A DNA stretch of 64,000 nt from Tetrahymena thermophila SB210 (taxonomy: Eukaryota; Ciliophora; Oligohymenophorea; Hymenostomatida; Tetrahymenidae): contig NW_002476492.1 in NCBI RefSeq assembly GCF_000189635.1, forward strand, positions 124,001-188,000, given 5' to 3'. The translations under genes and the position numbers were made by a program. The notes beneath the pieces were generated by a model, which was not told the origin of the DNA, made no database searches, and saw nothing but the letters and a program-made list of their open reading frames with translations. The stretch's first letter is position 1; each line of letters starts with the position of its first letter. Of this stretch, positions 15,420-52,549 are shown piece after piece.

Positions 15420-16900
15420 AGAATTTTAGGATCAAGGGGGAAAATCAAGACTTAACTTGTAAATTTTTAGCCTTTCAAGCCTTTTGATAATTGATTTTGA
15501 GATAATAATATAAGTAAAATTTTTTTTTATCCCTCTGACTTTATATATCAGATTGTAAGTACTCTAACGTAATTATTAATAAAAGATTTGAAATTTAAAA
15601 TAACTTTTTCACTCAATTAATATAGAATTATATAAGAGTTCATGCATTTTAGTTAAATCCTAAAAACTTAATTTCTATTTTAAATTAATGGTAAAATTGT
15701 ATTTATATAGATAGATTTCCATTAAAATACTTATGAAAATCATCATAACTCTTCAATAATCATTTTAAAAAATAAGATAATTCATTGCAGAGCTATTTTT
15801 ATTATTAGAAAAGGTGAGATTAATCAAAATTCATTTAAATAATACAAAATAAAAGATTTGAAATTTAAAATAACTTTTTCACTCAATTATGATAGAATTT
15901 TATAAGAGCTCATCCATTTTAGTTAAATCCTAAAAAACTCAATTTCTATTTTAAATTAATGGTAAAATTTTATTTATTAAGTTTTCCATTAAAATATGTA
16001 TGAAGATCATCATAATTCCTCATAATCATTTTAAAAAATAAGATAATTCATTGCAGAGCTATTTTTAATATTAGAATAGGTGAGATTAACAAAAATTAAT
16101 TTAAATAATACAACTAAAAATTGCCAATTTTTTGTATAATCAAAAATTTTCTTTATTATACTTATTTCCTTATCTCGAATCTTTTTGATATTCATCTAAA
16201 GTATTAAAAAATCATTTTAAAAGGATTTAAAGGGCTACATTATTCTATATTCCTGATTTTTAAGCTAGATTTCTTGACTTTAAACATGTTTTAATTGATT
16301 TTTAATATTTTCACTTTACTTATAAATCATATTTTTTTAGATCTTTTAAAATTTGCATGAAATAACATTATCAGCTTTTTTAAAAATGAATGATAAATGC
16401 TTTTATAAGTTTTGTATTGATTATAGAAAAAAAAAGATTGATTTAATATATTTAAGAACGATTAGATTATCATACAAATTTTAATTAAAAAATTAGATTT
16501 TCTTGTAAGTGTATATTAATATTTCTGTAACAAAAACTTGTGTTTTAAAAATTTTGATATTAAAAAAGATATTGAAGCTGAAAATAATTAAAAGGAAGAA
16601 AAAGGTAAATTTTTAATTAAACAACTATTGATGAATTTATTTGTAACTCAGGAAGTCAATTTTTTTTTTCTTCCTTTAATTAAAATAAAGCTGAATTTAT
16701 ATTTTTACCATTTAATAAGTGATTGGTTGTAATTATAATTTTTCTTATGAATAATGCCTCAAAAATTTAATTAAGATAGTAACCTTTAGAATATATCAAT
16801 CAATTAATTAATTTACTAATAAAATATAATAAAAGAAGAGAGAATTATTTAATTTAATTACATTATTCAAACGAAGGTGAAAAAACAAATATCATTTATA
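15420..16900. repeat. Repeat-rich region upstream of antigen gene A, with two tandem copies of about 265 bp
   Basis: Two adjacent copies begin near 15585 and 15850 with GATTTGAAATTTAAAATAAC and share CTCAATT, AGTTAAATCCTAAAAA, a tract with TTCCATTAAAATA, AAAAATAAGATAATTCATTG, CAGAGCTATTTTTA and GGTGAGATTAA. The marker ACTCTAACGTAATTATTAA occurs once, near 15558. The same repeat family fills 23.5-28.1 kb upstream of antigen gene B and is present, more diverged, upstream of genes C (51.3-52.0 kb) and D (55.35-55.95 kb). It therefore looks like a standing part of the 5' region of this antigen family. No coding content. Confidence 0.7.
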
Positions 16901-19466: not shown

Positions 19467-20236
19467 ATAAAATTTATTATTTCATTATAAATGTTACTAA
19501 TATTTATTTTAATTGAAATTGTATTCTTAAATAAATATTTGTGAAATATAATTTTTTAGTTTTTTTTTATTTTTATTAAATTTATTTCATTAAAATTGTT
19601 TTTATATTTAAATTAGGACTAATTAACTCATAAATTAACAATATTTTTAGAAAAAATAAACCTCAATTTTAATATGATTTTGATTTTTTAAGTTAGAAAG
19701 CTTTCAAATAAATAATAATATCTAAATTAAAAAGAGAGAAAAACAATTTTAATATTTTTTTAGATAATAATTATTTGTTCTAAATTCTTTAATTTATTCC
19801 TTCAAAATAATTGGGGGGGGGGGAGGGTCACAGCAGGTACCCATTCATTTTTTAATAGAAATTTTACATTTATTCAAAAATATTTTATAATTTCATTAAA
19901 AGATGGTTTACTAAAAATAAAATTAGTTTTATGGTAAATACTAATCAAATATTATTATTATTAACAATTAAATAAATTTAAATTTTATTATTATTATTAA
20001 CTTGTAAGAAAAATGATTGAATAAAAAATTATTTTTTCAGATCTCTAAGAAGTAAGCAAAAATAAATTTATTAATTAGCAAGTTAATAATATTTTTATTG
20101 CATAAAAAAAGTTTATAAACTCTAGCTTAACTTCCACTTCTTAACTGAATATTAAGCTAATGTAATATTATTAAACTTTATAATTTTTTAATTTTATTAT
20201 CTTTGATTGAATATTAAATTTTCTTTACAAAAAAAG
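19467..20236. other. 3' flank of antigen A, with a G-run
   Basis: AT-rich spacer. A run of eleven G followed by A and GGG lies at 19813-19827, which is very rare in this base composition; similar G or C runs lie near antigen genes B and D. Open frames near 19900-20160 could hold the 5' exon of the LRR gene that follows, but none could be supported. Confidence 0.5.
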
Positions 20237-22406
20237 GAACTAAAAAATAAATCAAAAAGATTTATCTGATTTGAGTCTAGCTTTAGAAAAATATACTAAC
20301 CTCTAAACTTTAAAAATTAACTTAAGGTTTTTTAAAATTAAAATTTGTTAAATAAATAAATACTTAATTTTACATTTTTAAGAAAAATTGTTGACAACAA
20401 TTTAATATTTATATAAATTTTAATAAAAAATAAAATTATTAATTTCTAATTTTATTAATATAAAAAGTGACAACAAAATTGATTCAATAAATGCATACAA
20501 TCTAGTAGCTGGATTAACTAATTTGCCTAATATCTAATACCTATCTCTCAATTTCAAGTAAATTTGAATGAAAAATATGGTTAATTAAGAAAAATAAAAT
20601 TTAAAAAGAATAACATAAAATAATTTATCCATTACTTCTTATACAAAATCAACTAATTTATTTCGAACTTCTAATTAGCAAAATCGCTATGTTAATGAAT
20701 TAATGAGTAATATTAACTCAAAGTTAATTATTGAAAATAAATCAATAAATTTCTCATTTTTTATCTGAAGCATAAATTTAAAATAGTGATTTCTATTATA
20801 TAATAATTTTAAATCATCATATTTCAGCCAAAATAATAATTTTTTTAACTATTTAAATACTCTCATATTGAAACATAAAATTTAGATAAATTTAAATAAA
20901 TAAATAAATTCAATTTGAATGACAAATTTACATTTGAAAAAGCTGATATAAATTAATTTGTATATTTTTAGTTAGAATAAAGTAGGTTCATAAGGTGTAT
21001 CAAACTTAGCTTATCTACTACCTAAGTTTTTAAATCTCTCAAAACTTACTCTGAAACTGAGGTATAAATGAATTAATATTTTTATCTTTATTTCAAGGGG
21101 ACATATTTCTCAATTTTTTTCATTTTTTTTTTTAATTATATAAAAAATATTTTATATTTTTTCTTTAAAAATATTTTTTCAGCTCAAATTATCCTCCCCT
21201 ATTATAAATAAATATAAATATATTATTATAATAATTTTTATAAAAGCGTTAATAAAGTAGCAGTATTAGGTGCAACTAGTCTTGCATCTTCTTTAATTGA
21301 TTGCAAAAATATTAAAACTTTGAAATTAATTCTTTCGTAAGAATTTTTTTAATATTAATATTAATTTATTTTAAAAATTGAATTTCATTTTAGTTTTTAT
21401 AAAATATTCAATTTTATTGCAATTATAATTAATAATAAATTAAAATATTTTAAAGTCATAATTTTATAGATTTTAAGGCTATTTCTGGTTTCTGTCTTCA
21501 TTTATCAAAATGTACTTAATTGAACGCTCTGTAGCTTTTTTTAGAGTAAAAAACTATTATTTATATTAAATTTTTAAACTTATCTTAATTTATGAAATCA
21601 AAATAAATAAATTTAACTTAAAAAAAATACTTTCATAAATTAATTAATAAATTTAATTTATAAAATTTTATATCGTTTTGAATTTAAATATGAAACATTT
21701 GCAAACTTATTAGCTAATAAAATAATTAAAGTTTATTAAAATAAATTTTAGATTTAATAATATAGGCCCATAGGGAGCTTAAGAATTAGGAAATGCCTTA
21801 ATTGGATGTTATAATCTTTAAAGTCTTAAGCTAGATATTACGTAATGAATTAATTCATTTTTATTTTTATTTCATCAAATTAAATTTATTATTTAACTTT
21901 TAAATTTGTTTAAATAATGGTAAAAAATAAAAGTTATTCTCAATTAATTAATCAAAGCAAAAATATATATATATTTTTTATTAATTTATTTAAAATTAAT
22001 TTTCAACAGTGGCAATTCAATTGGTTCGAAAGGATCAGCTGTTTTAGGATAAATTCTAAAGAATTCAAAAAGCATTTCTACTTTTTCTATTAAGTTTATG
22101 TAATGAGATTTAATTTAAATTTATTTTAGTCATTTAAATTATTAAAAGTAATTGTTATCTTCTTTATTATAGCTTGAATATTAATTTTTATTTATTTCTA
22201 GATTTAAGCAAAGCTTATTCAATAAATAGTTTAAGATTTACCCTTATAATAAATAAATATTTGAATTTATTTAAGATTTATATTAATTCTAAGAAATAAA
22301 ATATTCTAGTGATAATTCAAATGATGATTTAGGGCAACAATAATTTGTAAGAGGTATTTTAAAAATGAAAAGGCTAGTAACAAAGCATATTTAATTTTAT
22401 TTCTGA
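20237..22406 (+). CDS. Leucine-rich-repeat protein built from 90-nt exons (5' end undetermined)
   Basis: Six exons of exactly 90 nt (20237-20326, 20468-20557, 20972-21061, 21247-21336, 21752-21841, 22010-22099) each encode one leucine-rich repeat and end in phase 2 before a GT donor; 22310-22406 is the last exon with TGA. Examples are LSDLSLALEKYTNLQTLKI, VAGLTNLPNIQYLSLNF and VSNLAYLLPKFLNLSKLTL. The pattern is that of Tetrahymena LRR families in which each exon is one repeat. An exon-like stretch at 21470-21545 (SGFCLHLSKCTQLNALQLF) is only 76 nt and would break the frame, and two further relics lie near 20833-20890 and 22202-22255 (LSKAYSINSLRFTLI). They are either skipped or show that the gene is decaying. 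No start exon was found, nor a partner domain. LRR domains bind proteins; the target is unknown. Confidence 0.65.
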
Positions 22407-22559
22407 AAAAAATTAGCACTATTATTTAAATTAAAAAATATAGATTTAAACATATTCATTCATATTTTGTTAATTTTAAATATTTGTTTCGATATTTGTT
22501 ATGTAAAAAGACTTTTTAATTATATAATATAAATAGAAATATTGGGATGAACCCTACAT

Positions 22560-22985
22560 TTTATATTATATTCTTTTTTTATTCCATTTAAAGCTTCATT
22601 TATTTTATTGTTCATTCATTTATTTGTTTATTTATTCTTAAATTTTCTTTGTCCAGCACCCGACCACCAAGTATTCTAAACCTCACAAGGAGGCAAAAGA
22701 ATTTAACCTTAACCGGCATTCAAGTTATTAGGAACTTGATTTAAAGTCGATGAAGAGGTTGTGTTAGTTTGAGAATTGGTTTAAACATTGTTGGTGCTGC
22801 TATTATCTGCTTCATTAGCTAATTTTTATTTTTAAATATTATAATTGCTAGAAATTCTAAATAAATATTTGTTATGAAAACCATTTGTTAATTAACGTTT
22901 GCTTACGCTTATTAATTATATTGTGGATATCCTTGTTATGTTCCAAAGTTTCTTCATCCTTCAACCATTTTCCTGTAAATTTGAT
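22560..22985 (-). pseudogene. Relic of the ubiquilin gene (intron 4, exon 3 and exon 2 portions)
   Basis: Plus-strand sequence at 22660-22985 matches the ubiquilin gene at 12180-12570 in order: the end of the GGL-repeat exon, the Ser/Thr/Asn linker, the intron with its GTAAGC donor, and the exon 2 UBL part (KWLKDEETLEHNK-like). Copies differ by substitutions and small deletions, including the loss of part of exon 2. The stretch 22560-22645 matches ubiquilin intron 4 (about 11750-11840), so exon 4 and neighbouring sequence have been lost. UBL exon 1 and the UBA exon are absent. It cannot encode a working ubiquilin. The flanking 22990-23062 matches the ubiquilin upstream region, proving segmental duplication rather than retroposition, since introns are kept. 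Confidence 0.85.
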
Positions 22986-23059
22986 TAATTAAAATAAAAT
23001 CTGATATCTATTTTCTTATGGAATCTTTCTTTTTTCTAAATTCTAATTATTTCTTTAAT

Positions 23060-26000
23060 CTTTAAATTTAACTAATTACTTTTATTTAAAAAGAGATATG
23101 TTATTTTTAAGTTTCTTAAGATAGTCTTGCAAAATATTTTAGTCCATAGAAAAAAAACAAAAATAATAATAATAATTGTGAAAATAAATAGTCTTTTACC
23201 AATAAATTTATTCTTAATCTTAATATTAAATTCCTAATAAAACCATAAGCGTTCTTATTTCTTGATTCTATTAAATTTTCTTAATTAATGAAATTCGTGA
23301 ATAAAAACCTATTATATTTCTATTAAAGTAATCTTTTAATTATAATTTTTCAAAAAGTTAAATATGAATTTATAAAAATGTATTTTAAGTGTTTTATATT
23401 CATTAAATTCATTTCATTTTAAATAAGTTTTCTCTTATGAAATGCTCTTTTAACTGAATTCTATACATTATTAATTTGCTTGAACCTAAAAAAGCTTTTT
23501 TATATTTGCTTCTTGCTTGAATCAATAAGTCCAAAATTTGATGATATTTTTTTTTTAATAAATATTATTGTGGATTTAATATCACAGGGTTGAAAATTAA
23601 AGTTGGCCTTACAGATTTTGGCCTTTTAAATATTTTGTGATAAAGAATCTTTAAAAAAAAAATTAAATGAAGTCTTATTTCATCCCCTGTTCTTAAAATC
23701 TCATATTGTAAATAAGTACTCTAACGTAATTATTAATTAAAATTTTGAAAATTAAAGCAACTTTTCACTCATAATTTTTTGAATTATACACAGAAAGAAT
23801 TCATTCGTTTTAATTAAATCTTAACAAATACAATTCCTATTTTATTTTAATGGTAAAATTATATTTATAGAGTTTTTCATTAAAATATTTTTGAAAATCT
23901 TCATAAATTTAAAAATAAGATAATTCATTGCAGAGCCATTTTTATTATTAAATTGGTTAGATTAATAGAAATTTATTTAAATAACACTAAAAATTGTCAA
24001 TTTTGTGGATGATCAAACGTTTTCTTAACACTTTTCTTTTTGATATTACTCCAAAGTAACAAAAAATAATCTTAAAAGCTTTAAAGGGCTTCATTAAACT
24101 ACTTTCATCACATTTAGATTTCTTGAATTGTAAACATATTTTTCTAGAATTTTTATATTTGCGCTTTATAAATAAATAACAATCGGTTTAATTGATAATT
24201 ATTTGTTTTGAGGTTTCTTTTTAAAGTAAAAGTTTTTCTTTAAGCCTTTTTGATAAAAAATTTTAGGAAAGCACTTGCTTCAAAGCGTTTTTAGATAAGA
24301 ATCAAGTAAAATTTTTTTATTTTTCCTAGCTTTTTTGATAAAATATTTCAGTAAAATACTTCATTCAAAGTGATTATTTGATAATGATTGAATTTCTATT
24401 AAAATTAAATAAAGTCTTATTTCGTCTTCTAATTTCAAAATCTCCTATTGTAAATAAGTACTCTAACGTAATTATTAACAAAATTTTGAAAATTAATGTA
24501 ACTTTTTCACTCATTATTTTTTTAATTATACATGAATACATCCGTTTTATTAAAATCGTAACAAATAAAATTCTTTTTATTTTAATGATAAAATTATATT
24601 TTTAGAGTTTTCAGTTAAAATATTTATGAAAATCTTCATAAACTCACAATGATAAATTTAAAAATAAGATAATTCAATTGCAGAGCTATTTTTATTATTA
24701 AATAGGTTAGATAAATAAAAAGTTATTTAAATAATACAACTAAAATTGCCAATTTAATTGCTGATCATTACGCATTTATTTTTGATATTACAGCAAAATA
24801 ATAAAAAAATCATTTTAAAAACTTTAAAGGGCTTAATTAATATACTTTAATGACTTTTAAGCTAGATATAAAAAATATTTTCTTAATAATTTTTATTTCA
24901 GCTTTAAAAATAAAAAACGTTTTTTTTGATATTTTACAATTTACAAAATGAAATAAAATAAGCTTTTTTAAAATGAGTGCTTTAATATTTTGTATTGATA
25001 GAAGAAAAACTAATGTTCATAATTAGATGTAAAATTATTTTGGGTTAGGAATTTTATGGGCAGAAATGGATGATGCAATCGGTTTAATTGATAATGATTT
25101 GTTCTGATATATTTTTTAAGAAAAAGACTTTCTTTTAACATTTCTGATCAAAATTTTAGGAAAATACTCGATTTAAAATGTTTTGACATAAGAATCAAGT
25201 AAATTCTTTTTTTTATTCCTAACTTTTTTGATTAAATATTTCAGGAAAATACTTCTTTAAAAGTGATTATTTTTTTATGATTGATTTTATGATAAAAGTT
25301 AAGTAAAAGTCTTAAAATCTCCGATTGTAAATAAGTACTCTAACATAATTATTAATAAAAATTTTAAAATGTAAAGTAACTTTTTCACTTACTCTCTTTT
25401 TTGTGTTATATATGAGTTCATCCATTTAAGTTATATCCTAATAAATACAATTCTTATTTTATTATAATGTTAAAATTCTTTTGAAGAGTTTTCTATTAAA
25501 ATATTTATGAAAATCATCATACCTTCTCAATGATGAATATAAAAAATAAGATAATTCATTATAAAACTATTTTTATTATTAAATAGGTTAGATTAATAAT
25601 AAGTTATTTAAATAATGCAATTAAAAATTGCTAATTTAGTAGATGGTCAAACATTTTCTTTACACATTTCTTTTTGATATTACTCCAAAGTAATAAATAA
25701 TCATTTTATAAACTTTAAAGGGCTTTATTATTCAACTCTCATGATTTTTAAGCTAAATTTTTTGAATTTTATTATGATTGGTTCTCTGCTAAAATTAAAT
25801 AAAGTCTTATTTCATCCCCTGGCCTTAAAATCTCATATTGTTAATAAGTACTCTAACGTAATTATTAATTAAAATTTTGAAAATTAAAGTAACTTTTTTA
25901 ATCTTATTTCTTAGAATTATATACAGAATTCATCCGTTTTAGTTAAATCTTAACAAATACAATTCCTATTTTATTTTAATGGTAAAATTTAAAAATAAGA

Positions 26001-28150
26001 TAATACATTGCAGAGACATTTTTGAATTGGTTAGATTAATAATAAGTTATTTAAATAATACAACTTAAAATTGCTAATTTAATGAATGATCAAACATTTT
26101 CTTTCACATTTCTTTTTGATATTACTCCAAAAAAATAACAAATTATTTTAAAAACTTTAAAGGGTTTCATTAATCTACTTTCATCACTTTTAGATTTCTT
26201 GAATTGTAAACTTATTTTTTTATTATATTAACATTTGTGCTTTATAAATAAATAACAATATGTTTAAATGATTATGATTTGTTTTGAGGTATAATTTTAA
26301 ATAAAAGGTTTTCTTTTAGCTTTTTTGATAAAAAATTTTAGGAAACACTTGATTCAATGAGTTTTTAGATAAGAATCAAGTAAAATCTTTTTATTATTCT
26401 AGCTTTTTTTGATAAAATATTTCAGGAAAATACTTCATTCAAAATGATTATTTGATAATGATTGATTTTAACTTAAATTGAATAGAGTCTTACTTTGTTT
26501 TCTGGTTTCAAAATATCCTATTGTAAATAAGTACTCTAACGTAATTAGTAATACAAATTTTGAAAATTAAAATAACTTTTTCACTCATAATTTTTTTAAT
26601 AATACATTAATTCATCCGTTGTATTAAAATTCTAACAAATACAATTCCTATTTTATTTTTATGATAAAGTTATATTAAAATAGTTTTCCATTAAAATATT
26701 TATGAAAATCTTCATAATTTCACAATGATAAATTTAAAAATAAGAAAATTAATTGCAGAGCTATTTCTATTATTAAATAGGTTAGATTAATAAAAAGTTA
26801 TTTAAATAATACAACTAAAATTGACAATTTAATCGATGATCAAACGTTTTCTTAACACATTTCTTTTTGATATTACTGCAAACTAATAAAAAAATCATTT
26901 TAAAAGCTTTAAAGGGCTTCATTAATCTACTTTATTCACTATAAAGCTAGATTTCTCTAATTGTAAAAATATTTTTCTAGAATTTTTTTATTTGCGTTTT
27001 ATAAATAAAAAACATTTTTTTTTTGATCTTTTAAAATTTACAAAATGAAATAAAATAAGCTTTTTTAAAATGAAATCATTAATATTTTTGTATTGATAGA
27101 AGAAAAACTAATGTTCATAATTAGATGTAAAATTATTTTGGGTTAGGAATTTTATGGGCAGAAATAGATGATTCAATCTGTTTAATTGGTAATGAAATGT
27201 TCTAAGGTATATTTTTAAGGAAAAGGTTTCCTTTTAGTATTTTTGATAAAAAATTTTAGGAAAACACTTGATTCAAAACATTTTGAGAAATGAATCAAGT
27301 AAAATCTTTTTATTATTCCTAACTTTTTTGATAAAATATTTCAGGAAAATACTTCTTAAAAGTTATTATTTTATAATGATTGATTTTGTGAAAAAAATTA
27401 AGTAAAAGTCTTTTTAAGTTTATCGTCTAAAAAACTCCAATTATAAATAATACTCTAACGTAATTATTAATAAAAATTTTAAAATTTAAAGTAGCTTTTT
27501 CACTTACTCTCTTTTGAATTATATTTGTGTTTATCCATTTTTTTAATTAAATCCTAACAAATACAATTTTATTTTAATGATAAAATTGTTTTATTGAGTA
27601 TTCTATTAAAATATTTATTAAAATCATCATAACTTCTCAATGATAAATTTAAAAAAATAAGATAATTAATTACATAATTATTTTTATTATTAAATAGGTT
27701 AGATTAATAATAAGTTAATTGAATTATGCAATTAAGAATTGTCAATTTAGTGGATGGCCAAATATTTTCTTTACACATTTCTTTATGATATTACTCCAAA
27801 GTAATAAATAATCATTTTAAAAACTTTAAAGGGCTTTATTATTCTACTCTCATGACTTTTAAGCTAAATTTATTAAATTTTAAACATATTTTTCTAGAAT
27901 TTTTTTATTTGCATACTATAAGTGAATAATAATTTTTTGATCTTTTAAAATTTATAAAATGAAGTAACATCAGCTTTTAAGATGATCAATTATTTCTTTT
28001 ACATATTTTATAATTGAATCAGGCAAGAAAAACTAATGCTCATTAACATCTTTAAAAATGGTTAGATTATGATAAAAATTTTGATTAAAAAGTAGGTTGA
28101 TTGTAAGTAAAGTGAATTTTAAAATTCTTGAATTAAAAACATTGAAACTA
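23060..28150. repeat. 5-kb field of degenerate repeats upstream of antigen gene B
   Basis: The marker ACTCTAACGTAATTATTAA, or a form one or two bases away, occurs near 23718, 24461, 25337, 25850, 26533 and 27450. Each is followed by an AATTTTGAAAATTAAAGTAACTTTTTCACTC-like tract, a 'TCATCCGTTT' or similar motif, AAATAAGATAATTCATTGCAG, TTATTATTAAATAGGTTAGA and TTAAAGGGCTTCATTA. A second marker, TTATTTTGGGTTAGGAATTT, occurs at about 25034 and 27135, so a block of about 2.1 kb was itself duplicated. The family also occurs upstream of genes A, C and D. The first 400 bp (23100-23500) hold a copy of the 398-bp repeat found at 13.4-15.1 kb. No gene was seen in this field. Confidence 0.75.
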
Positions 28151-28283
28151 AATTTAGTAAAAAGGAAAATTAGTTACAAAATATCTATGTTTTGATGTAA
28201 TAACTAATAAGTTGAAAAGTAGATTTTTTTCTTTCTTTCTTTCTTTAAAATAAAGCTGAAATAATATTTTTGGTAGGGAAGTA

Positions 28284-28397
28284 GGGGGGGGGGGGGGGCA
28301 CTTATATTGGAGTAAGAAAAATACTCGATTATTCATTACAAAAAACATATTTAGGAATAAATAGTGGATTTTAAGTCCACTATAAGTGCCCCCCACC
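28284..28397. repeat. G-rich inverted repeat (hairpin) upstream of antigen gene B
   Basis: A run of 15 G (28284-28298) is followed by CACTTATA; its complement TATAAGTGCCCCCCACC lies at 28381-28397. The arms pair over about 14 bases perfectly and more with mismatches, enclosing a loop of about 74 bases. This may be a foldback or MITE-like insertion, or simply a structured G-run. Its position about 345 bp before the ATG of gene B is notable. Confidence 0.6.
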
Positions 28398-28584
28398 ATA
28401 TTTTTACAATTAAGTAAGTGTTTGGCTGCAATTTTTATAATGATATCTCAAAAATTTAATTAAGATAGTAACCTTTTGTACATTGTGGAGGATTTTTATT
28501 AAATAATACAGAAAAAAAAATTTAAATTTAATTGTATTATTTTGATGATAAAGTTTATAGCTATTAAATTAATGAATTTATTCA

Positions 28585-28672
28585 CTTATACATAAAACGC
28601 CATTATTTGAAGTTTTAGAAGATATATTTGAGATTCTAGATAGAAAATAATAATTTGAGGTATAAATGTATT
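28585..28672 (+). promoter_or_regulatory. Antigen gene B upstream block with TATA-like box
   Basis: CTTATACATAAAACG is identical to the block before gene A, followed by ATTTGAAGTTTTAGAAGATA and GAGGTATAAATG (TATA-like box near 28661-28667, about 81 nt before the ATG). A shared TTAGATATAAACAAATTAA tract lies between the box and the start in A and B. Confidence 0.55.
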
Positions 28673-28741
28673 GGATAATCTAAATTAGATATAAACAAAT
28701 TAAATAAATAAAACAAAAAAACATACAAAAGTTGAAAAAAA

Positions 28742-31700
28742 ATGAGAAAAATAAACATTTGCCTCGTTCTTTTTGTGCTATTCTAGGTCTCCTTTTAGTA
28801 CTGTCACTATTCAATTTAAAATAATAATGGTTAATGCAATTGCTTTGGTGGATTTTATGCTAACTCTGCTAATTGTTTAGTATGCCCAAATAATGGATTA
28901 AGTTTAGGAGGATCTATTTCAATATCAGATTGCAAATATTGTAACTCTAATTCATACTATTTGGATTAGGCAGCAACAGATTCTTAAGGTTCAGTGTGCT
29001 TATTATGCCCTAATAACTCCTAGACTCAAACTAATTATCCTTAGGGACCTCAAGATATTAGTGATTGTAATATTTGCTAACCTGGTTATTATCTTTAGAC
29101 CCCAGCAGTTCCACCTTAAAATGGTAATCCTGGCTAAGCTGCAGTTTGCGTTCCGTGCCCAAATAATACAACAAGTAAAATGGGTCCAAATCCTACTTCA
29201 ATCTCTTAATGTGATTCATGCTAAAATGGGTTTTATATTTCTTAGCAAGCAACAGATTCCCAACCAGCAATTTGTTCACCTTGTCCTATTAATACGACAA
29301 ATAGCTACGATGAACCTTCTAATTTTTAATATAATATTAATGATTGCACTTCATGTATGCCTGGCTATTATAATTCTAATCAAAACTTTAATTAACCACC
29401 TATGTGTGTATAATGTCCTCCAAATACATTTAATTACATTACAGGTTCTTTTTCAATTTCAACTTGTACTTGTATGGAAAACTCCTATATGACAGTTCAG
29501 TCAACAAATAATTCTGCTCCAACTTGTTTGCCATGTCCTAATGGTTCAGGAAACTATTAACCACCTTTATTAGCTGGAGATTAATCTCAATGCGACATTT
29601 GCTAAGCGGGTTACTACGCATCCACGCCATATGCAGATCCTACAAATGGAAATCCAGGAATTGCATCCTAGTGCCACCAATGTCCAAATAATTCTTATTC
29701 TGACCCCGGACTTTCATTTTATGAATCAAGTTGTTATAAGTGCAAACTTAATTATTACATGAAAACCGCTCCCGCACTAGGAGTCTCCGCTATTTGTTAA
29801 CTTTGTCCTAATAATTCTGGTACTTTAAATCCTATAACTGAGTAAGGAGATGAAACTTAATGTTCTATTTGCACAGATGGTTATTACATGACTTAAGCAT
29901 TTTAAATAGGAAAAACTGCATCATGCTAAAAATGTCCTCCTGGATCTACTTCAAAATAAGGCATTAATACTGGTTGCTATTGCTTTGACTAGAATGCAAC
30001 ATGGTCATCAAATACAAATTCCTGCTAATGTAATCAAGGTTATTTTGGTACCCCAGCAACCTCAATAGGTGCTTAAGGATGCACTCCTTGTCCTGCAGGT
30101 TAATACTATTAATCAGGAAATTGCGTTGATTGCCAAGCAGGATACTACTCAAGTTCACCTGCAAGTCTTTCATGTACCCTATGTACTACTGGTAAATATG
30201 CATAAGGAACAGGAAATACATCTTGTGCTAGTTGTCCAGATAAATCTACTTCTTCTTTAGATTTTTCTAGCTGTTTGTGTTTTGATTCAAGTGCTATATT
30301 TAAAAACAATATTTGTGTCTGTCCTGATGGTTATTTTGGAACACCAAATTCATCAAGCTAACCTGGATGTTCGCCTTGCAGTAAAGGTCAGTATTCAAAT
30401 TCTTCTACTTCTGGAGCATGTACTGTTTGTCCAGCTGGATATTTTGCAGCTAGTATTGGAAGTTCTTAATGTTAATAATGCAGTGATGGTTAATTCGCTT
30501 CTGGTACAGGAAATTCTTCATGTTAAACTTGTGGTTCAAGTAAAACAAATAATAGTGATTTTACTGATTGCTAATGCATTGATCCTAACTCTAACTTAAA
30601 TGGAGGTAGCTGTATTTGCAATCCAGGCTATATAGGAACACCAGCAACATCAATAGGTGCTTAAGGATGCACTCCTTGTCCTGCAGGTAAATACTATTAA
30701 TCAGGAAATTGTGTTGATTGTCAAGCAGGATACTACTCAAGTTCACCTGCAAGTCTTTCATGTACTCAATGTACTGCTGGTAATTATGCATAAGGAACAG
30801 GAAATACTTCTTGTGCTAGTTGTCCAAATAAAACTACATCTTCTGTAGATTTTTCTGGCTGCTAGTGTATAGATTCAAGTGCTATATTTAAAAACAATAT
30901 TTGTGTCTGTCCTGATGGTTATTTTGGAACACCAAATTCATCAAGCTAACCAGGATGTTCGCCTTGCAGTAAAGGTCAGTATTCAAATTCTTCTACTTCT
31001 GGAGCATGTACTGTTTGTCCAGCTGGATATTTTGCAGCTAGTATTGGAAGTTCTTAATGTTAATAATGCAGTCATGGTTAATTCGCTTCTGGTACAGGAA
31101 ATTCTTCATGTTAAACTTGTGGTTCAGGTAAAACAAATAATAGTGATTTTACTGATTGCTAATGCATTGATCCTAACTCTAAATTAAATGGAGGTAGCTG
31201 TATTTGCATTCCAGGCTATATAGGAACACCAGCAACATCAATAGGTGCTTAAGGATGCACTCCTTGTCCTGCAGGTAAATACTATTAATCAGGAAGTTGT
31301 GTTGATTGTCAAGCAGGATACTACTCAAGTTCACCTGCAAGTCTTTCATGTACCCAATGTATTACTGGTAAATATGCATAAGGAACAGGAAATACTTCTT
31401 GTGCTAGTTGTCCAAATAAAACTACTTCTTCTGTAGATTTTTCTGGCTGCTAGTGTATAGATTCAAGTGCTATATTTAAAAACAATATTTGTGTCTGTCC
31501 TGATGGTTATTTTGGAACACCAAATTCATCAAGCTAACCTGGATGTTCGCCTTGCAGTAAAGGTCAGTATTCAAATTCTTCTACTTCTGGAGCATGTACT
31601 GTTTGTCCAGCTGGATATTTTGCAGCTAGTATTGGAAGTTCTTAATGTTAATAATGCAGTCATGGTTAATTCGCTTCTGGTACAGGAAATTCTTCATGTT

Positions 31701-32926
31701 AAACTTGTGGTTCAGGTAAAACAAATAATAGTGATTTTACTGATTGCTAATGCATTGATCCTAACTCTAAATTAAATGGAGGTAGCTGTATTTGCAATTC
31801 AGGATATATAGGAACACCAGCAACATCAATAAGTGCTTAAGGATGCACTCCTTGTCCTGCAGGTAAATACTATTAATCAGGAAATTGTGTTGATTGTCAA
31901 GCAGGACACTACTCAAGTTCACCTGCAAGTCTTTCATGTACCCAATGTACTACTGGTAAATATGCATAAGGCACAGGAAATACTTCTTGCACTAGTTGTC
32001 CAAATAATACAACTCCTTTAGCAGATTTTTCTGGATGCTAATGTATAGATTCAAGCGCTATATTTAAAAACAATAATTGTGTCTGTCCTGATGGTTATTT
32101 TGGTACACCAAATTCATCAAGCTAACCTGGATGTTCACCTTGCAGTAAAGGTCAGTATTCAAATTCTTCTACTTCTGGAGCATGTACTGCTTGTCCAGCT
32201 GGATATTTTACGGCTAGTATTGGAAGTTCTTAATGTTAATAATGCAGTGATGGTTAATTCGCTTCTGGTACAGGAAATTCTTCATGTTAAACTTGTGGTT
32301 CAAGTAAAACAAATAATAATGATTTTACTGATTGCTAATGCATTGATCATAACTCTAAATTAAATGGAGGTAGCTGTATTTGCAATCCAGGCTATATCGG
32401 CACACCAGCTACCTCAAAGAATTCTTCAAATAGTTGCACAGCTTGTCCAGCTGGATAATTTACAGATTTATCATCTGGAAAATGCTCTCCATGTCCTGCT
32501 GGAACATTCTCAAATGGTTAAGCTAATGTAAATTGCACTTAGTGTAGCTCAGGATAATATGCAAATGGTACTGGAAATACTTCTTGTAGCAACTGTGGCC
32601 CTGGATCTACTAACACAGATGATTTTTCTGGCTGTAAATGTTATGATTCAAATGCAGTGGTTTGGTCTGCAGATAAAAATTAATGCTAATGTGCTGCTAA
32701 TTTTTATGGAGATGCAAGTTTAGCCACGAGTGTTTCTAAAACTTAATGTATAAACTGTCCAAACAATACAACATCAAAAATTGGAGCAGCTAAAACTCAA
32801 AAAGATTGTTAAAATATTTCTTCTTCTACTTCTACTTCCTCCTCTTAGAGCTAATAAATTGGTTAATACTCATTTTCTTAAATTATAAAAATATCAATAA
32901 TATTAGCTCTAGTATTGCTGATATGA
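28742..32926 (+). CDS. Immobilization-antigen-like surface protein B, long form with four internal repeats
   Basis: One uninterrupted ciliate-code frame of 1394 residues without introns. It starts with a signal peptide (MRKINICLVLFVLFQ). The N-terminal half has antigen-type Cys repeats with the spacers PPQNGNPGQAAVC and DPTNGNPGIASQC. The C-terminal half has GCC2/GCC3-like units. A 196-residue block with about two dozen Cys is repeated four times (30036-32387); genes A, C and D have it once. The end is a Ser-rich linker and a hydrophobic tail (IIKISIILALVLLI), a likely GPI-anchor signal, so the protein should sit on the cell or ciliary surface. In this family, antibodies to such proteins immobilise the cell, and expression is often exclusive among paralogs; that is family knowledge, not shown here. 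The upstream block and the repeat field are shared with gene A. Confidence 0.9.
30036..32387 (+). repeat. Four 588-bp in-frame tandem repeats inside antigen gene B
   Basis: The sequence GGTGCTTAAGGATGCACTCC (AGTGCTTAAGG in the last copy) recurs at about 30067, 30655, 31243 and 31831, exactly 588 bp apart. 588 is 196 codons, so frame is kept. Copies 2, 3 and 4 are almost identical at the DNA level, including silent sites; copy 1 differs more at its 5' part and copy 4 has some changes near the centre. This points to recent unequal exchange or gene conversion. Confidence 0.93.
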
Positions 32927-34239
32927 ACTTATTACTCCATTACTAATGTTATTTATATTTTTTTAATTGAAGTTTTATTCTTAAGTAAATAAATATAAAG
33001 TGTTGTATTTTAATTTTTTAGTTTATTTAATTAATGAAATTTATTTAGTTAATTTTTTTTTAGATAAGAAATAAATGAACTCATAAATTAACAATCTTTT
33101 TAAATAAAATAAATCTGTATTTATGATTTTTTAAGTTAGAAATATTTCAAATAAATCAATCAAGAATATCTAAATTTAATTTTTATTAAATTTTTTCAAT
33201 GAATATGGCATATTTTATTTTTAAAAAGCTAACCATGGTATTGAAATTTTCTGAAATTATATACCCAATTAGAGAAATTTCTATAAGTTTTTAATTAAAG
33301 ATGGAAAATTAAGTAGTAATTGCTTTTTTTTTTTATATATCAGATCTACATATTACGTGTGATTAAATTTTTAAAAAATGCCTATTTATTTTTTATACAA
33401 AACTGACTTAAGAAGAATTAATTTATTTAAGTAAATTTATTTTTTTTATTTTTTATTAGTTATTTATTAATTCACAAAAATATGATTTTTATAAATATAA
33501 AAACAGTATTAAAATCTATCTTTTTTTTAGGTTAAAACAACTTTTTAAAAATATTAAATAATAAATCATTTAATATTCAATTATTCAAACATTTATATAA
33601 TATGTATGCATCGTTTTTTTTGCCACTTGTTTATCATCAAAATTTTTTTTCAAAGACAAATAATCTTTTTTATTTAAGACACTTGCTTATTACTTTGAAT
33701 CTTTATTGTTCATTTATTTGGTTAAAACTTTTTTAACAAATTTGTATAAATTTAAATAAAATAAGAAAAAATATGATATAATAAGATTAATTATAAAAGC
33801 AAAAGTTGAAAATAAAATGATTATTTAAATTAATAAAGAAAAAAAAAAAGCAAGCACAATAAAAATAATAAAGAAAAAGAGCTTTATTGTTTTAAATTAG
33901 TTTTGTAAATTAAAAATAGCATTAAGAATTTGATAATGAATGAGTAGATCTTAGATAAAAAAGAAAAGATTGATATTTCAATGAAAATAAAGGATTGATA
34001 TTGAAGAAATTAAAATAAAAAATAATACTTTTATTACCATAAAATATAAAATCATGTGAAAAGTCTGTGAGAAACAATAAATCCCTCTTTATTCAACAAG
34101 AAAAAGATAAATCAAATAAAAATAATTCTAATCCAAACAGAGGAAAACTATGAAATGGAAAAAGATTTATTGAAGTGGATACTAAATTAGAAAAAATATA
34201 ATCTAATTGTAATAATTGTAATAGTATAGTAAATAATTA
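32927..34239. other. Intergenic region, no gene seen
   Basis: AT-rich spacer downstream of antigen gene B. From about 33730 it contains one copy of a repeat (ATATGATATAATAAGATTAA, then AAAAGCAAAAGTTGAAAATA, then GAGCTTTATTGTTTTAAATT) that recurs near 34620 and, diverged, three times at 42.6-43.4 kb. That repeat corresponds to intron-like sequence of an LRR exon family on the minus strand. Confidence 0.5.
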
Positions 34240-34600
34240 ATTAAGCTTTATAGATTAGATCAGATTCTAGTTTTATTGCAAGCTATCTTACACCTACTTA
34301 CTCATCTAATGCAGAAGGTTTCTGATGATTTATTAGTAGTTTAGGAAGAAAATAAACAGCTAAAATAAATAAATAAATCAATAAATAAATAGATTATCTT
34401 CTTCAATATTAATGAAACTCTAATATTATTAAGATGTATATTTACTATTGTTTTAAATTAGTTTTTATATTTAAAAATATCAAAAAGAAATATAAATAAA
34501 TTGTTATTACGAAAGTTAAAGTGTCAAATTAGAGAGATTAATCCAATTAGCTAAAGCAGAACCTAAGCCTGATGTTCCCATATTACCAATTGATTTGTAA
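34240..34600 (-). pseudogene. Isolated LRR exons on the minus strand (gene remnant)
   Basis: The stretch 34600-34511 (minus) is a perfect 90-nt LRR exon: preceded by AAAAAG, reading SIGNMGTSGLGSALANWINL then SNLTLQL, and followed by a GTAATAAC donor in phase 2. A second, less complete exon-like stretch near 34335-34240 reads ALDEQVGVRQLAIKLESD. No start, terminal exon or further intact repeats were found between 33 and 36 kb, so this is most likely a remnant of a minus-strand LRR gene. Relatives of its flanking introns lie at 33.7 kb, 34.6 kb and 42.6-43.4 kb. Confidence 0.6.
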
Positions 34601-36080
34601 CTTTTTAAATATTGAAGAAAAAATATGAAATAATAAGATTAATTAATAATAAAAGCTAAAATTGGGAATAAAATTATGAGTTAAATTCATAAAGAAAAAA
34701 CAAAAAAAAACAAGTACAATAAAAGTAAAAATTAAAATAAATTAAATAAATTAAAAGAGCTTTAATGTTTTAAATTAATTTTTATAATTAAAAATAAATA
34801 AATTGTTTTTATCAAGTGAAAGTGTTAATAGCAAAAAATAAATGAATAAAAAATATAAAATAATAAAAAATGAATAATAAATAATGAAAAATTGAAATGA
34901 AAATTAAGTTAAAATAGCTAAATAATTTAGGTATAAATACTAATCAAAGAATAATTATGAAAATATTTATTTGAAATATTATTTTTTTAAATAAATTGAA
35001 AATTAAATATATAAAAAATAATAATAATATTTATAAATTAAATATACTTCATATTAATATGGAGAACCTTATGAGATTAAAGTGAAGGCTTTAAAAGCTT
35101 TTTTTATTAATAAAAATAAATTTAAAGGATATAAATAAAAAAATAAATAATTACCTCATCTAATTTTCTGTAATATTTAATCTTTTATATCATTTATTTT
35201 TTTTTCAAAAATATTGGATAGAAATTTAAGGAATTTAATTAATTAATTATAATTGGATAAAAAGAACAAATAAATTTTAATAATTAATTATCGAATATTA
35301 ATTTATAAATTTGCTTTTATGAATAGGTATCACAAAAAAATTAATTTATTATTCATTATTTAATGCCATACAGCCCAGTATAAATTTTTCTTGCTGCCAA
35401 ACATTTTTTTTATGGTTTCAATGGGAACATCGGATAACACATACAGTTTTTTGCAAAATATAATTTTGGTATTCAGTTTTTATTTCAAGGAAAATATGGT
35501 ATTTATTTGGTATAATTAAAAAATTGATTACCATATTATATTATTATATGGTTATATGGCCGAATGAAAAAAAATGGTAAAATCTCTAATAAATATGAAT
35601 TTGATATGGCACATTTGTGAATTAAGAATGAAAATATATTTAAATTTATTTCTCAATAATGATAAAAAAATGACACAAACAAACAATCAAACAAAATATT
35701 TAAATTAAATGGGAGAATAAATAAATATATTTCAATATTTTAAGGCATAAGAATACAAAAAAAAATGGGTAAAATTTAATCTTTCAAATTTACTTTTTTT
35801 AATTAGAAAGAAAGAGCTTCTAACAATTCTCATAAATAAATAAGCAAGCAAATTCTTAATCTATATTCCTCTTTTGTTTATATGGATTGTTATAGGCACT
35901 AACAGAAATAGGTTTAATAGAAAAATAGATAGTATTAATAAAAGAATTTAGTAATAATAACATATATTAATTTACTTGTGAAGTGAAGGTATTAATTAAT
36001 TAATTATTTATTTATTTTTTAATAGATTAAAATTAAGATAAAAAATAATTAAAACAATATTCTATATATTGAAAAATAAG
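34601..36080. other. Intergenic region with one repeat copy, otherwise nothing recognised
   Basis: 34620-34800 is a copy of the LRR-intron-like repeat. 35330-35650 is of slightly different texture, with several ATGG and CCAT words and short inverted pieces around a TTATATTATTATATGG core; it may be an old insertion but has no clear ends. The last 130 bp before 36081 resemble the sequence upstream of the second zinc-finger gene at 41515-41620 (inverted), with ACTTGTGAA and AAGATAAAAAATAATT in common. Confidence 0.5.
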
Positions 36081-36623
36081 ATGAAGTCTGAATGCCATTT
36101 ATGCTAAATGACTGTTCAAAACCTTGCGAAATGCACAAAGACTCGTTGCCGCAATTTTTTTTGTGAGAAATGCATCAGAGAAAATTTCGATAAAGGATTT
36201 ATATATCATATTTCTTACAAAGAAGGCTGCTGGGTTTGCTACGCATGCTAAAATGTCTGTAGTTGCAAGCTTTGCAAAGGAGAATTACTACTTTACAGCA
36301 AGAAATCTCTAGCAAAGCGCAAGAATAAGAATATTCAAACAGTTTAATAGCCTTCAGTGATAGAAAAAAGCAGCTCTACGACTTCAAACATCTAAGAAAC
36401 AGAAAAAGAAAAAGATTCTAGTGATGATCTTCTTTCGCACAACTATGATTTCGAAAAAAGATTATCATAAGAAGAGAACGAAACTTCAAATAATGCATTT
36501 AAATATAACTTAAAACAACAAAGATTGCTAAACTAAAAGATTACAAAGTCTTTGCCTTCTTACAGCAAAGAATACCACTCAAATAAATTTTATAGAAGAA
36601 AAATGCTATTAAAAGTTCTATGA
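36081..36623 (+). CDS. CDCA7-type zinc-finger protein (zf-4CXXC_R1), copy 1
   Basis: A single open frame of 180 residues with no intron. Residues 5 to about 75 hold the spaced Cys pairs of the zf-4CXXC_R1 domain: CHLC, CTKTRC, then FCEKCIRENF, then CWVCYACQNVCSCKLCKG. The family includes CDCA7, CDCA7L (R1) and domains in some JmjC demethylases; CDCA7 binds DNA and works with the HELLS remodeller. The rest is a basic patch (KKSLAKRKNKN), an acidic Ser-rich stretch (ETEKEKDSSDDLL) and a basic tail, with no other domain. Lengths of 180 residues and the finger at the very N-terminus differ from animal CDCA7, in which the finger is C-terminal. A near-identical gene of the same length faces it on the minus strand at 41514-40972. 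Nuclear DNA- or chromatin-binding is the likely role. Confidence 0.85.
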
Positions 36624-37149
36624 ATAGCTTTTATTAATTAAATCAAAAGAAATACTATTATCTTTTATAAAGAGAAAATTAATTATATCTTAATAATTTC
36701 AAAAATAACATGCTAATATCACATAATTTATTTATAGGACAGAGTAAAAATATATCAAATACAACTAAAAATAAAATTATTTTTATATTTTAAATTAATA
36801 TTTTACAACTTTTTGTTATATCTATCTAATCGCTTAAGTTATTTAAGTTAATAATTAATATTTCAGATATTTATAATTAATGACTCTAACTTCATTTAAT
36901 TTCTATCTTACATTTTAAAAACCAATTAAGCTTCACAACCATTGTTTCCTGCTTTAATATATCAATAAATTTAGATGTAATATTTATTTTGCTTATATTC
37001 TCTGTAATAACTTTATTGAGTGCTTAAACCCAAATATGAAGAATAATTAATTTTAGTAGAATTTTATGTAATTTTAGTAATTCATTAATCTAACAAAAAA
37101 ATAAGCAAAATAAGTCTATTTTATTGATTCCCTTTTATTTCTAGGATGA
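36624..37149. other. Spacer, no gene seen
   Basis: AT-rich sequence between the zinc-finger gene and the relic of the orphan gene. Part of it, near 36890-37060, could be older, unrecognisable extension of that relic. No supported feature. Confidence 0.4.
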
Positions 37150-37520
37150 AAGATTTCTTTTTTGGATTATTTGAGTTCTATAAACAGCTACTAAACTTAC
37201 TCTAAAATTTGAGATAAATTAGCTATAACCAATTTATTTTAGCAAGTATTTAATTAAATTGATACGATTCTAGAATAGTCTTGACTTAAAAGTATCACTT
37301 TTTATTTCGTAATTTAGTAATAGAAGATTTACATCAAGGAAAATCTTCATATATATTTTGTGAAAAGTATGTATCATCAGCTCTAACACTAGATTTTAAC
37401 AAAGTTATTGAAAAACCTTAATAAAACCTTTTAAAATAAAGTAAGTAAGACTTTTAAAAATATTTGTTATTATTAATTAAGCCTCAAATATTTCTATTTA
37501 TACTTTAGATTAAAAATAAA
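37150..37520 (-). pseudogene. Relic of the C-terminal part of the orphan gene at 59.6-63.0 kb
   Basis: Minus-strand sequence matches the orphan gene between about 60550 and 60880. Shared peptide pieces include EIKSD(T/P)FKSRL and a DD(T/I)YFS motif, with the same order of surrounding words (AAGTGAT, TTAAAATAAAG, CAAATA-CTTCTAT). The relic has several in-frame breaks and covers only about a tenth of the full gene. It sits just upstream of the LRR gene 37.7-39.8 kb. It shows that a segment of the orphan gene, or of a related lost gene, was once copied here. Confidence 0.7.
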
Positions 37521-37719
37521 TACTTTATTTTTTTTGAAGAATTTCGTTAATTAAATTTAACCTCAATTTATTTATAATATAAACATTTGATTAGAGAAAA
37601 ATCACACTAATTTGATTATAAATTTAAAAATTAAACAAATAAACAATCAGTCAAATTGATAAATTTAATATGTATCAATTTTGATCAAATAAAATTTAAT
37701 AAATCTAAGTTAAAAAAGA

Positions 37720-39756
37720 ATGATTTTATAGAATAAGAAATACAGTCATCTAGAAGATGTAATTCATTTCTTATTTGAATACTTTAATAATATTTTTGCT
37801 TTTTGCTTTAAAAGTTTTCTAAATCTAATTTATCTTAGCATACGCAGTTGCTGTTAAACTTCAAGTAAAATTTTTTATTTATTTTTGAAATTAATTTCTT
37901 TAATTCATTTAAATTTATCAAATAGAATAAATAATTATTAAATTATTTTAATCATTTATTCGATTTATTTAATTATTTATTTGTTTATTTTAATTTTCTT
38001 TAATAACAACAAAATTTTATTGATTTCAAGGTGGAATAAGGTTGATGAAGAAGATGCTTTGAAATTGGCAAATAGCTTAAGATTATGCCAACAACTTGTT
38101 AATTTGACACTCTAATTAAGGTAAAAAATGAAATTAATTCTCTACAAAAACTTTAAATAAAACTCCAAATATATATACTGTAAATGCTCTTTAATTATGG
38201 CATTTTTTTCTTAAATTTTTTTTTTTTCGACTATGGTGTATGGTACTTTTTTTTGGGCAAAAAAGATACTTAGGGAATGCCTTAATTAATGAGCATTTAC
38301 AGTATATTATTTTTATTATTATTAAATAAAATGTATTAATAAACAAATCAAAATTTTATTTTTTCAAAAAGCTTAAACAAAATAGGTGATAATTTTATAT
38401 CTGATTTGGGATTTGCTTTAATAGATTGCACACATTTATCATCATTAACATTGGATTTAAGGTACACATATTTAAAAAAATTATTTTTTTATAGTTATCT
38501 GAAATATTATTTATCTGTCTGTAATAAATGAACAATTATTTTAGCAATTAACAAATTTGAATAAACAAATATTACAGATAAAGTAGTAAAACTCATTAAA
38601 TTTAAAGAAATAACAATCAATAATTTAGGATTATTTTATATTTAAGTTTCAATTTTATTTTAAAAGCTCTAATGAAATTTATGACGAGGGTATTTCAGAC
38701 TTAGCAAATGCTCTATCTAATTGCCCTAATCTCTCAAATTTAGCTCTAGATTTATCGTGATAATTTAAATTTACTAAAAACAGCTCTTACTAATTTATTT
38801 TTTAATGATTTTATTAATATGAAGATATAATAAATTCAGTGATAAAGGAATTTCTGAATTAGGATCAGCTTTAAAGAATTTCAAAATTTTGTCAGAATTA
38901 ATCTTAAATCTTAGGTTAAAATAATTTCTTTCAATTTAATAAATCTAAAAATTATTTGATTTAATTCCTAATTAAACATAATGACAAAAAACTTAAATAT
39001 TTATTAAGCCTTAACAAAATCACTGCGAACGGTTCTCATGATTTATGGGCATGCCTAAAAATTTGCAAGCATCTACGCAACTTAACTATAAATCTTAAGT
39101 AAGCTAAAATAAAATAATATGTTTAAAAGAAGAACAAATATTAAAAATATGAAATCTTAATTATATTAAAATATTAAAACTCACAAGTATTTTTAATTTA
39201 AAAATATTAACTTTAATTAAAAGAGCTAAAGGTGCTAACTGTGCTCATGGTTTAAATTCTGACATCATAAATACTAATATCATGATTTTGAAGCTCGATT
39301 TAAGGTATATTAAAAATATTTCAATATATTTTTCTTCTGAATTTTTAAAATAATTTAATTATAAAAAAGATGGAATAAGATAGGAAAGAATGGTTTGAAG
39401 AGTCTTAAATAAGCGTTAAAAAGCTGTGTGAATCTCGCAAGCTTAGAGCTTTATTTGAGGTTAGTTTGTTTTTTCTATTAAATTACTTAAATAATTTAAA
39501 ATAAATTTTCAAAGAAAATATTTTTGGATATTTTAGCATAAAAAAGAAAGATATTTATTTTTAACAAATAAATTTTAAAGATATTTAGAAATTATTTTAA
39601 TTTAATTTAATTTTACCTATTTATTATTGATATTATATATAATATTTTCATTTGATTAAAAGCAAACTCAACTTGAATGCCAATGAGGTGGTAAAAGTCA
39701 CAAGATTAGTTCCAAAATTAAATAAATTAGTATTTAAACAAATCATTATTGACTGA
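37720..39756 (+). CDS. Leucine-rich-repeat protein with one 90-nt exon per repeat
   Basis: Well-supported exons are 38031-38120, 38372-38461, 38667-38756, 38825-38914, 39009-39098, 39370-39459 (all 90 nt), 39224-39304 (81 nt), and the terminal exon 39663-39756 with TGA. All internal junctions are phase 2 with GT..AG introns. Repeats read, for example, FISDLGFALIDCTHLSSLTL, GISDLANALSNCPNLSNLAL and LKSLKQALKSCVNLASLEL, a cysteine-containing (RNI-like) LRR. A candidate first exon begins at ATG 37720 (MILQNKKYSHLEDVI, ending near 37864), but its phase does not match exon 2, so the 5' end is uncertain. The protein would be about 270-300 residues, mostly LRR. The 251-nt second intron carries a small transposon. 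The partner and role are unknown; the ciliate LRR family is large and fast-evolving. Confidence 0.75.
38177..38302. mobile_element. Tc1/mariner-like MITE in an LRR-gene intron
   Basis: A 126-bp element with terminal inverted repeats of at least 27 bp (25 of 27 match). The left end begins CTGTAAATGCTC at 38177; the right end finishes GAGCATTTACAG at 38302. TA dinucleotides flank it on both sides (38175-38176 and 38303-38304), the target duplication of Tc1/mariner elements. The interior has poly-T tracts and no coding capacity, so it would depend on a transposase elsewhere. The high arm identity suggests recent insertion. It lies wholly inside the intron between exons 38031-38120 and 38372-38461, so it need not harm the LRR gene. 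Confidence 0.8.
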
Positions 39757-52383: not shown

Positions 52384-52480
52384 TACTTATAATTAAAACA
52401 AAGTTATTTGAATTTATAGAAGATGTATATGAGGTTATAGAAAATTATATTCTGAGGTATGTATGTTAAAATAGATTCCA
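52384..52480 (+). promoter_or_regulatory. Antigen gene C upstream block with disrupted TATA-like box
   Basis: CTTATAATTAAAAC, TTATTTGAATTTATAGAAGAT and GAGGTTATAGAAAAT parallel the blocks of A, B and D. Where these have GGTATAAATAG or a near copy, C has GGTATGTATGTTAAAATAG at about 52457-52475, as if about eight bases had been inserted into the TATA-like box. The ATG at 52550 is at the usual distance. Confidence 0.5.
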
Positions 52481-52549
52481 AAACCTAACTTAGATAGATA
52501 TAAAACAATTAAAAAAATAAAATTTCAAACATTCAAAAGTTTAAAATAA

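Follow-up and report, generated by a model that had tools for sequence, protein, structure and literature searches.

A Ser/i-antigen-like gene of Tetrahymena thermophila whose cysteine-rich stalk probably grew from one to four units by unequal recombination

Why free-living ciliates maintain large, varying families of surface antigens is still unclear (PMC4136848). Candidates for the Ser or immobilisation antigens (i-antigens) of Tetrahymena thermophila have been defined by the cysteine pattern CX(>=6)CX(>=1)CX(>=1)CX(>=1)CX(>=1)C within 120 aa together with a C-terminal glycosylphosphatidylinositol (GPI) anchor signal rated 'highly probable' by FragAnchor; the cysteine pattern is loose, with 4,925 hits among 24,725 proteins (PMC4136848). 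Tandem repeats and varying repeat numbers are already known from ciliate surface antigens, as far as the accessible parts of the sources go: Ichthyophthirius i-antigens carry 5 to 6 tandem cysteine-containing repeats of 60-100 aa, in varying number, between signal and GPI ends (excerpt of PMC3341644), and in Paramecium surface antigens the ends are conserved, with tandem repeats inside only some of the members (excerpt of PMC9788069). Here we analyse a 64,000-nt window of the T. thermophila SB210 assembly (positions 124001-188000 of contig C73, NW_002476492.1) and its gene B, which resembles the Ser antigens in its cysteine pattern, its signal-like and GPI-like ends and its place in a same-strand cluster. 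The contig is 224,744 bases long, and the family search ran on the 101-Mb assembly of 445 contigs. We consider it likely that gene B encodes a surface protein of Ser/i-antigen-like type, probably GPI-anchored, and that unequal homologous recombination enlarged its cysteine-rich stalk from a single 196-aa unit to four.

Gene B lies on the forward strand at 28742-32926 as a single frame of 1394 codons plus stop (4185 nt) in the ciliate code (table 6), in agreement with the length reported in a preliminary description of this DNA. Four head-to-tail units of 588 nt, starting at 30029, 30617, 31205 and 31793, occupy positions 30029-32380. A second, separate repeat analysis also gave the spacing 588/588/588, and when the sequence is compared with itself at a shift of 588, an identity of about 0.3-0.4 gives way to 0.85-1.0 between 30032 and 31742 before it drops again, which is far beyond chance. 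The encoded protein comprises a head (residues 1-429; 28742-30028), in which a signal-like N-terminus precedes CPNN-type cysteine modules arranged in a row, as judged from the open reading frame, N-terminal hydropathy and an amino acid change faster than that of the unit; then the units (residues 430-1213); and finally a last half-unit, a serine-rich linker, a hydrophobic GPI-like C-terminus and a TGA stop (32381-32926), assigned by alignment, hydropathy and a half-unit tree. Units 2-4, the three extra ones, contribute 588 residues in all; each carries 6 possible N-glycosylation sites and 24 cysteines, for totals of 18 and 72.

The units are not equally alike. Aligned over 588 nt, unit pairs match at 559 (1-2), 561 (1-3), 543 (1-4), 580 (2-3), 557 (2-4) and 559 (3-4) positions. 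Units B2 (30617-31204) and B3 (31205-31792) are 98.6% identical, while units B1 (30029-30616) and B4 (31793-32380) differ from the others by 5-8%, B4 being 92-95% identical to them. Private differences number 21, 5, 3 and 23 sites in B1 to B4, and B1, according to the alignment, its private sites and the tree, is diverged in its left part. The earlier claim that copies 2-4 are nearly identical hence applies to the pair 2-3 and fails for 2-4 and 3-4. A uniform young array was rejected, as only B2 and B3 are close, and so was a single-step triplication, as the units are unequally diverged.

Three sister genes on the same strand carry one unit each, as delimited by open reading frames and alignment: A (17053-19466, unit of 591 nt at 18333-18923), C (52463-54937, unit of 588 nt at 53837-54424) and D (56422-58818, unit of 588 nt at 57709-58296). 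With four copies in B against one in A, C and D, and with the frame open throughout, the proposed in-frame growth of B by three 588-bp units is borne out. It had been added that B without three units measures 2421 nt, the length of A once 7 missing bases are counted. The arithmetic is right (4185 - 1764) and the shortfall lies in the head of A (1280 nt versus 1287 nt in B and D), but the equality is partly luck because the unit of A is 3 nt longer (591 versus 588 nt) and its tail 3 nt shorter (543 versus 546 nt) than in B; given these offsetting indels, the length match was rejected as proof of three units. The frame of A is broken only in the head, near 17.5 kb, with unit and tail open, and A is either a pseudogene or affected by an assembly error. 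At the beginning of gene C (52463-52552), the first ATG is followed 87 bases later by a second, which aligns with the starts of B and D; this later ATG may be the true start.

The 588-nt unit is itself a dimer of two half-units, a and b, of 97 and 99 aa. Half-unit a begins like CNxGYIGTPATS and half-unit b like CPDGYFGTPNSS; a third type, c, follows the last unit ahead of the anchor-like end. Each of the eight a and b half-units of B contains 12 cysteines, and the 99 residues taken for c contain 11. The half-unit order is a-b-c in A, C and D and (a-b)x4-c in B. The half-unit tree joins the first half-units from genes with several half-units to all a halves of B (support 97/94) and groups the last half-units of these genes (86/84); within B, the four b halves (100/99) and the four a halves (86/94) form groups. 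Neighbouring half-units in A, C and D share 53-59% nucleotide identity. In B, a and c are 62-63% alike compared to 55-58% for a and b, and in the paralogue C180 the pairs h1-h3 and h3-h5 reach 62% and 64%, compared to 50% and 49% for the neighbours h1-h2 and h2-h3, but 59% for h3-h4. Half-units two apart are thus often more alike than neighbours in C180 and B, which would favour pairing in a two-half-unit register.

One half-unit is present in each of the paralogues C360 and C435, five in C180 and C147 and seven in C153, and the counts in the nine close genes (1, 1, 3, 3, 3, 5, 5, 7, 9) are all odd; a tenth close gene, C171, was dropped from this count because the motif caught its N-terminus. 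We rejected the odd number as a universal rule: the nine close genes fit without exception but are kin, and the wider-family locus L036 appears by eye to contain two short modules, compared to one in L035. All family counts are lower bounds, given 48 matches listed and 33 of 53 candidates scored. Cysteine-rich frames were obtained from 11 of the 12 wider loci, and none from L044. A related cysteine-rich frame, L040 (contig C393, 1041-2588), consists by eye of a long row of modules of about 60 aa, a different route to a longer protein of this kind.

The starts of half-units a and c have a 36-nt motif in common (CNxGYIGTPATS), 28-30 of 36 positions being alike in each of the four genes. In B2, the alignment of this motif (30617-30652), inspected by eye, is of tail type to about 30640 and of B1 type from about 30646, and B3 and B4 look similar. 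Before column 24, the informative columns, at which B1 and the tail differ and the unit matches either of them, agree with the tail at 5/5 sites in B2 and B3 and at 4/4 in B4, column 29 and the columns from 37 on follow B1, and columns 17, 20 and 32 (also 11 in B4) match neither (all by eye). Columns 7 and 23 separate starts from tails in the sister genes: in A, C and D, the start has the base of B1 and the tail that of B2-B4 (3/3 each); column 15 is a weak site because the base of B1 is private there. Such chimeric-looking starts are the product expected if an a-start paired with a c-start and exchange took place inside the motif, at about 30640-30646 in B2. A distant paralogue, C153 (L027, contig C153, 2674-6372), offers a second case among its seven half-units: h4 equals h6 at 28-30 of 30 nt in windows from columns 0-90 and equals h2 at 26-30 of 30 nt from column 120. 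This clean chimera seems to reflect a separate gain of two half-units by exchange at a different point, and the gain in both genes is a multiple of two half-units.

We propose that the ancestral layout would have been head, a, b, c and anchor, as retained in A, C and D. A misaligned exchange at the 36-nt motif of an a-start and a c-start would have added one a-b dimer of 588 nt and kept the frame. Later exchanges of whole units, together with conversion, could then have produced units 2 and 3 while the b half-units stayed alike; greater divergence would have remained in unit 4 and in the left part of unit 1. The exchange presumably took place in the germline nucleus.

In a tree of whole units, the B units form one group to the exclusion of A1, C1 and D1 (support 100/100). 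Synonymous divergence (dS) between B2 and B3 is 0.022 (3 changes in 136 sites; 95% interval of the uncorrected proportion about 0.005-0.064), that of the other B pairs is 0.078-0.162, and that of B units from A, C or D is 0.23-0.49. The preliminary description had called the expansion recent and proposed silent-site identity among the units as a check; 'recent' suits the B2-B3 step best, the other pairs being older. Its suggestion that the array may still be changing is compatible with these data, which come from a single assembly. Four-fold-site diversity, according to the accessible part of PMC10868616, amounts to 1.0% across 22 strains of T. thermophila and to 1.8% for a reduced set, and an older estimate of the product of effective population size and mutation rate (Neu) of 8e-4, hence 4Neu of 0.0032, is quoted in the part of PMC5585995 available to us. 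The B2-B3 value is close to the first of these estimates, by which the last step would be about as old as ordinary within-species variation and may be polymorphic; by 4Neu it would be older than that. The earlier steps would be older by either estimate, unless gene conversion made them look younger.

Variation is also unevenly spread along the units. To the left and right of column 255, a cut picked after inspection, variable columns number 42 and 13 among B1-B4 compared to 35 and 54 among A1, C1 and D1 (p 1.5e-5); cuts at columns 150, 200, 291, 300 and 350 gave p values of 0.16, 0.051, 1e-4, 4e-4 and 0.007, respectively. This suggests that the b half was kept alike within B.

The protein is surface-antigen-like, as had been claimed: a hydrophobic N-terminus, a serine-rich linker, a small/polar stretch followed by a hydrophobic C-terminus (mean hydropathy of the last 12 residues 2.88), and the Ser-family cysteine pattern, which occurs in 75 windows of B and in at least 22 in each of the 10 genes tested. 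The Pfam scan matched PF07699 Ephrin_rec_like (179.3 bits, cut-off 23.1, 20 stretches), NCD3G (66.5, cut-off 38.9) and TNFR_ELAPOR1_6th (33.4, cut-off 33.2), and the only solved relatives found by sequence at E <= 0.001 were ELAPOR1 chains (5e-8 to 1e-7). All 24 cysteine columns are invariant across the seven units compared. An AlphaFold model of units 1-2 from a seven-row alignment (mean predicted local distance difference test score 85.6, predicted template modelling score 0.53) appears to match extended cysteine-rich chains; in the structure search, a Chlamydomonas mastigoneme filament ranked best, with ELAPOR1 next and TNF-receptor-type domains lower, all at low template modelling scores. 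The ratio of nonsynonymous to synonymous divergence (dN/dS) in the head is 0.54 for B-C and 0.58 for B-D, compared to 0.29 and 0.23 for the unit (B3 versus C and D) and 0.21 and 0.28 for the tail; as no ratio exceeds 1, positive selection is unsupported. Our best reading is a conserved cysteine-rich stalk below a freer, faster-changing head, and the order of head, units and GPI-like end agrees with the earlier proposal that added units would set an N-terminal head on a longer stalk. The extra units would thus lengthen the stalk under the head; the roles suggested for this, in moving an epitope away from the membrane or varying repeat dose, are extrapolations.

Several observations weigh against this account. 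The data come from one assembly of one strain, in which the unit number could be mis-assembled, and the informative sites at the unit starts are few. Clustering of the private sites of B1 among the variable columns was not significant in a permutation test (p 0.094). In gene A, a and c are 58% alike compared to 59% for neighbours, so that the register preference is not general. The B2-B3 dS is about seven times the 4Neu of 0.0032 (from the accessible part of PMC5585995), which, like the half-units of A, speaks slightly against the main reading. The dN/dS values for C-D (head 0.39, unit 0.22, tail 0.53) do not fit a simple pattern of fast head and slow rest, query-normalised template modelling (TM) scores to mastigonemes are low (0.13-0.28), and the GPI signal and surface location of B are predictions from sequence.

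If the multi-unit state were ancestral, A, C and D would have lost units and concerted evolution would keep B uniform. Gene conversion can indeed make old units look young, and C180, C147 and C153 carry 5, 5 and 7 half-units; their extra half-units, however, are not sisters of those of B and form an h3-type (100/99) and a b-type group (97/98) of their own. A, C and D, or their ancestor, would also have had to undergo the same loss, and B2-B4 start with TGC, as does the tail of B itself, a triplet that neither the starts nor the tails of A, C and D show. We regard this history as improbable. Still less credible is an assembly artefact, with a unit number in the cell that is lower or higher than in the contig. 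The contig lacks a telomere in its first and last 400 bases, so that the assembly is incomplete here, and tandem repeats are reported to upset assemblies (PMC6868369), but the private differences in each of the four units argue against one unit counted four times; a larger number could have been collapsed. For comparison, PMC12615304 names the long-read assembly GCA_016584475.1 and cites a macronuclear genome assembled telomere to telomere from Nanopore reads in 2021.

Growth by unequal recombination also competes with replication slippage or template switching, which would give the same end product and could use the same short motif at the join. A step of 588 nt is long for slippage by general knowledge, and the C153 chimera joins two diverged half-units inside a homologous stretch, as homologous exchange would; template switching is indistinguishable from crossing-over by sequence alone. 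Taken together, an origin by either process seems rather unlikely. More weight is due to the possibility, which we nevertheless doubt, that the units are binding or receptor modules and not a spacer. The Ephrin_rec_like, NCD3G and TNFR-like matches and the conservation of the unit (dN/dS 0.23-0.29 to C and D) are in line with it, and a receptor role is suggested for Paramecium repeats in the accessible part of PMC9788069; on the other hand, many of the invariant positions are cysteine and glycine, which a rod would need too, and no ligand is known.

The window has a GC content of 22.7% and no N bases, and its long frames emerge once TAA and TAG are decoded as glutamine; AT-rich DNA with such frames looks like ciliate nuclear DNA. 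A telomerase exon in the assembly is identical to the telomerase chain 6d6v of T. thermophila, except for a poorly aligned start and an insertion of 21 residues that resembles an intron. Translation of 22000-38000 with table 11 gave a longest listed open reading frame of only 143 aa, and B is open in table 6 only. CCCCAA repeats occur 4512 times on one strand of the genome and 4052 times on the other, and the matches listed place them at the beginning of contig C4 and, in reverse orientation, at about 465.6-465.9 kb of C4, as expected of macronuclear chromosome ends. A bacterial tRNA scan and an NCBIfam scan gave no match, nor did a Pfam scan of five neighbouring frames. Long antisense frames over A-D, such as the 1748 open codons at 27627-32873 over B, were rejected as genes, being expected when a single codon is the only stop.

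Upstream of B, the apparently non-coding region 24000-28000 contains interleaved repeats, mostly spaced by about 0.44-1.2 kb and 60-92% alike in the families examined, and part of it resembles by eye a 266-base tandem pair at 15578-16113. This GC-poor DNA has runs of 6-15 G or C near A (19813-19823), B (28284-28298 and 28389-28394) and C (55100-55119). Upstream of B, the G run and the C run each lie in one arm of an inverted repeat (GGGGGGCACTTATA); this 14-mer occurs genome-wide in those two places only; runs of 11 G are present on many contigs. A 372-aa frame on the minus strand (46571-47689) has an 18-base repeat encoding a KNDQP(P/S) run and no Pfam match. Further tandem arrays lie at 13457-15049 (period 396, 4.0 copies), 47776-48751 (period 486, 2.0 copies) and 63057-63658 (period 299, 2.0 copies). 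The finder that listed them has a period limit of 500 nt and did not list the 588-nt array of B; a census of tandem repeats in the germline genome used the same limit, according to the accessible part of PMC5182062, and such limits form a blind spot for arrays like this one.

The sister genes, the joins and C153 together make a recombination step readable nearly base by base and comparable with silent diversity. B is also a ready test locus, as a single polymerase chain reaction suffices to count its units in natural strains and clonal lines. A bolder idea, which we hold to be rather improbable, is that coat-protein length is a live, quantised trait, with stalks of the close genes changing only by the dimer and the unit number of B differing among strains and, through macronuclear assortment, among clonal lines. 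If true, one locus could tune coat height without sex.

We found no literature describing the gene B locus, although no gene identifier was available to search by, and none joining the phrase 'GCC2 and GCC3' with T. thermophila. A 2002 paper by Lin et al. reportedly concerns i-antigen repeat copy number, and variable tandem repeats in two Paramecium G alleles are said to be the subject of a paper from 1990. B has 12 cysteines in each a or b half-unit, compared to 6, 8 and 10 per block in SerL, SerH and SerJ, and fits none of these printed subtypes (PMC4136848). It differs from the Ichthyophthirius i-antigens in stepping by a 196-aa dimer, with four dimers 92-99% alike in one gene, and from the Paramecium antigens in their cysteine motif, CTVNXXGTGC (excerpt of PMC9788069). 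Within the genus, the repeat number of leucine-rich repeat (LRR) genes is argued, in the accessible part of PMC6564038, to shift by unequal crossing-over; their units, however, are 90-bp exons with phase-2 introns, whereas B is one uninterrupted frame of cysteine-rich units in which the Pfam scan found no LRR family. The two-unit model resembles the protein of the Chlamydomonas mastigoneme filament (9b4h, 8wa2), an extended ciliary chain (Foldseek E 2.7e-15), with a TM score of 0.28 at best and about 20% identity; we propose homology for the small module fold at most. What the B locus adds to these systems is a reading of the mechanism at the level of the joins, the dimer step and an age estimate, and B is a clear example of an ordinary route by which such coat proteins change in length.

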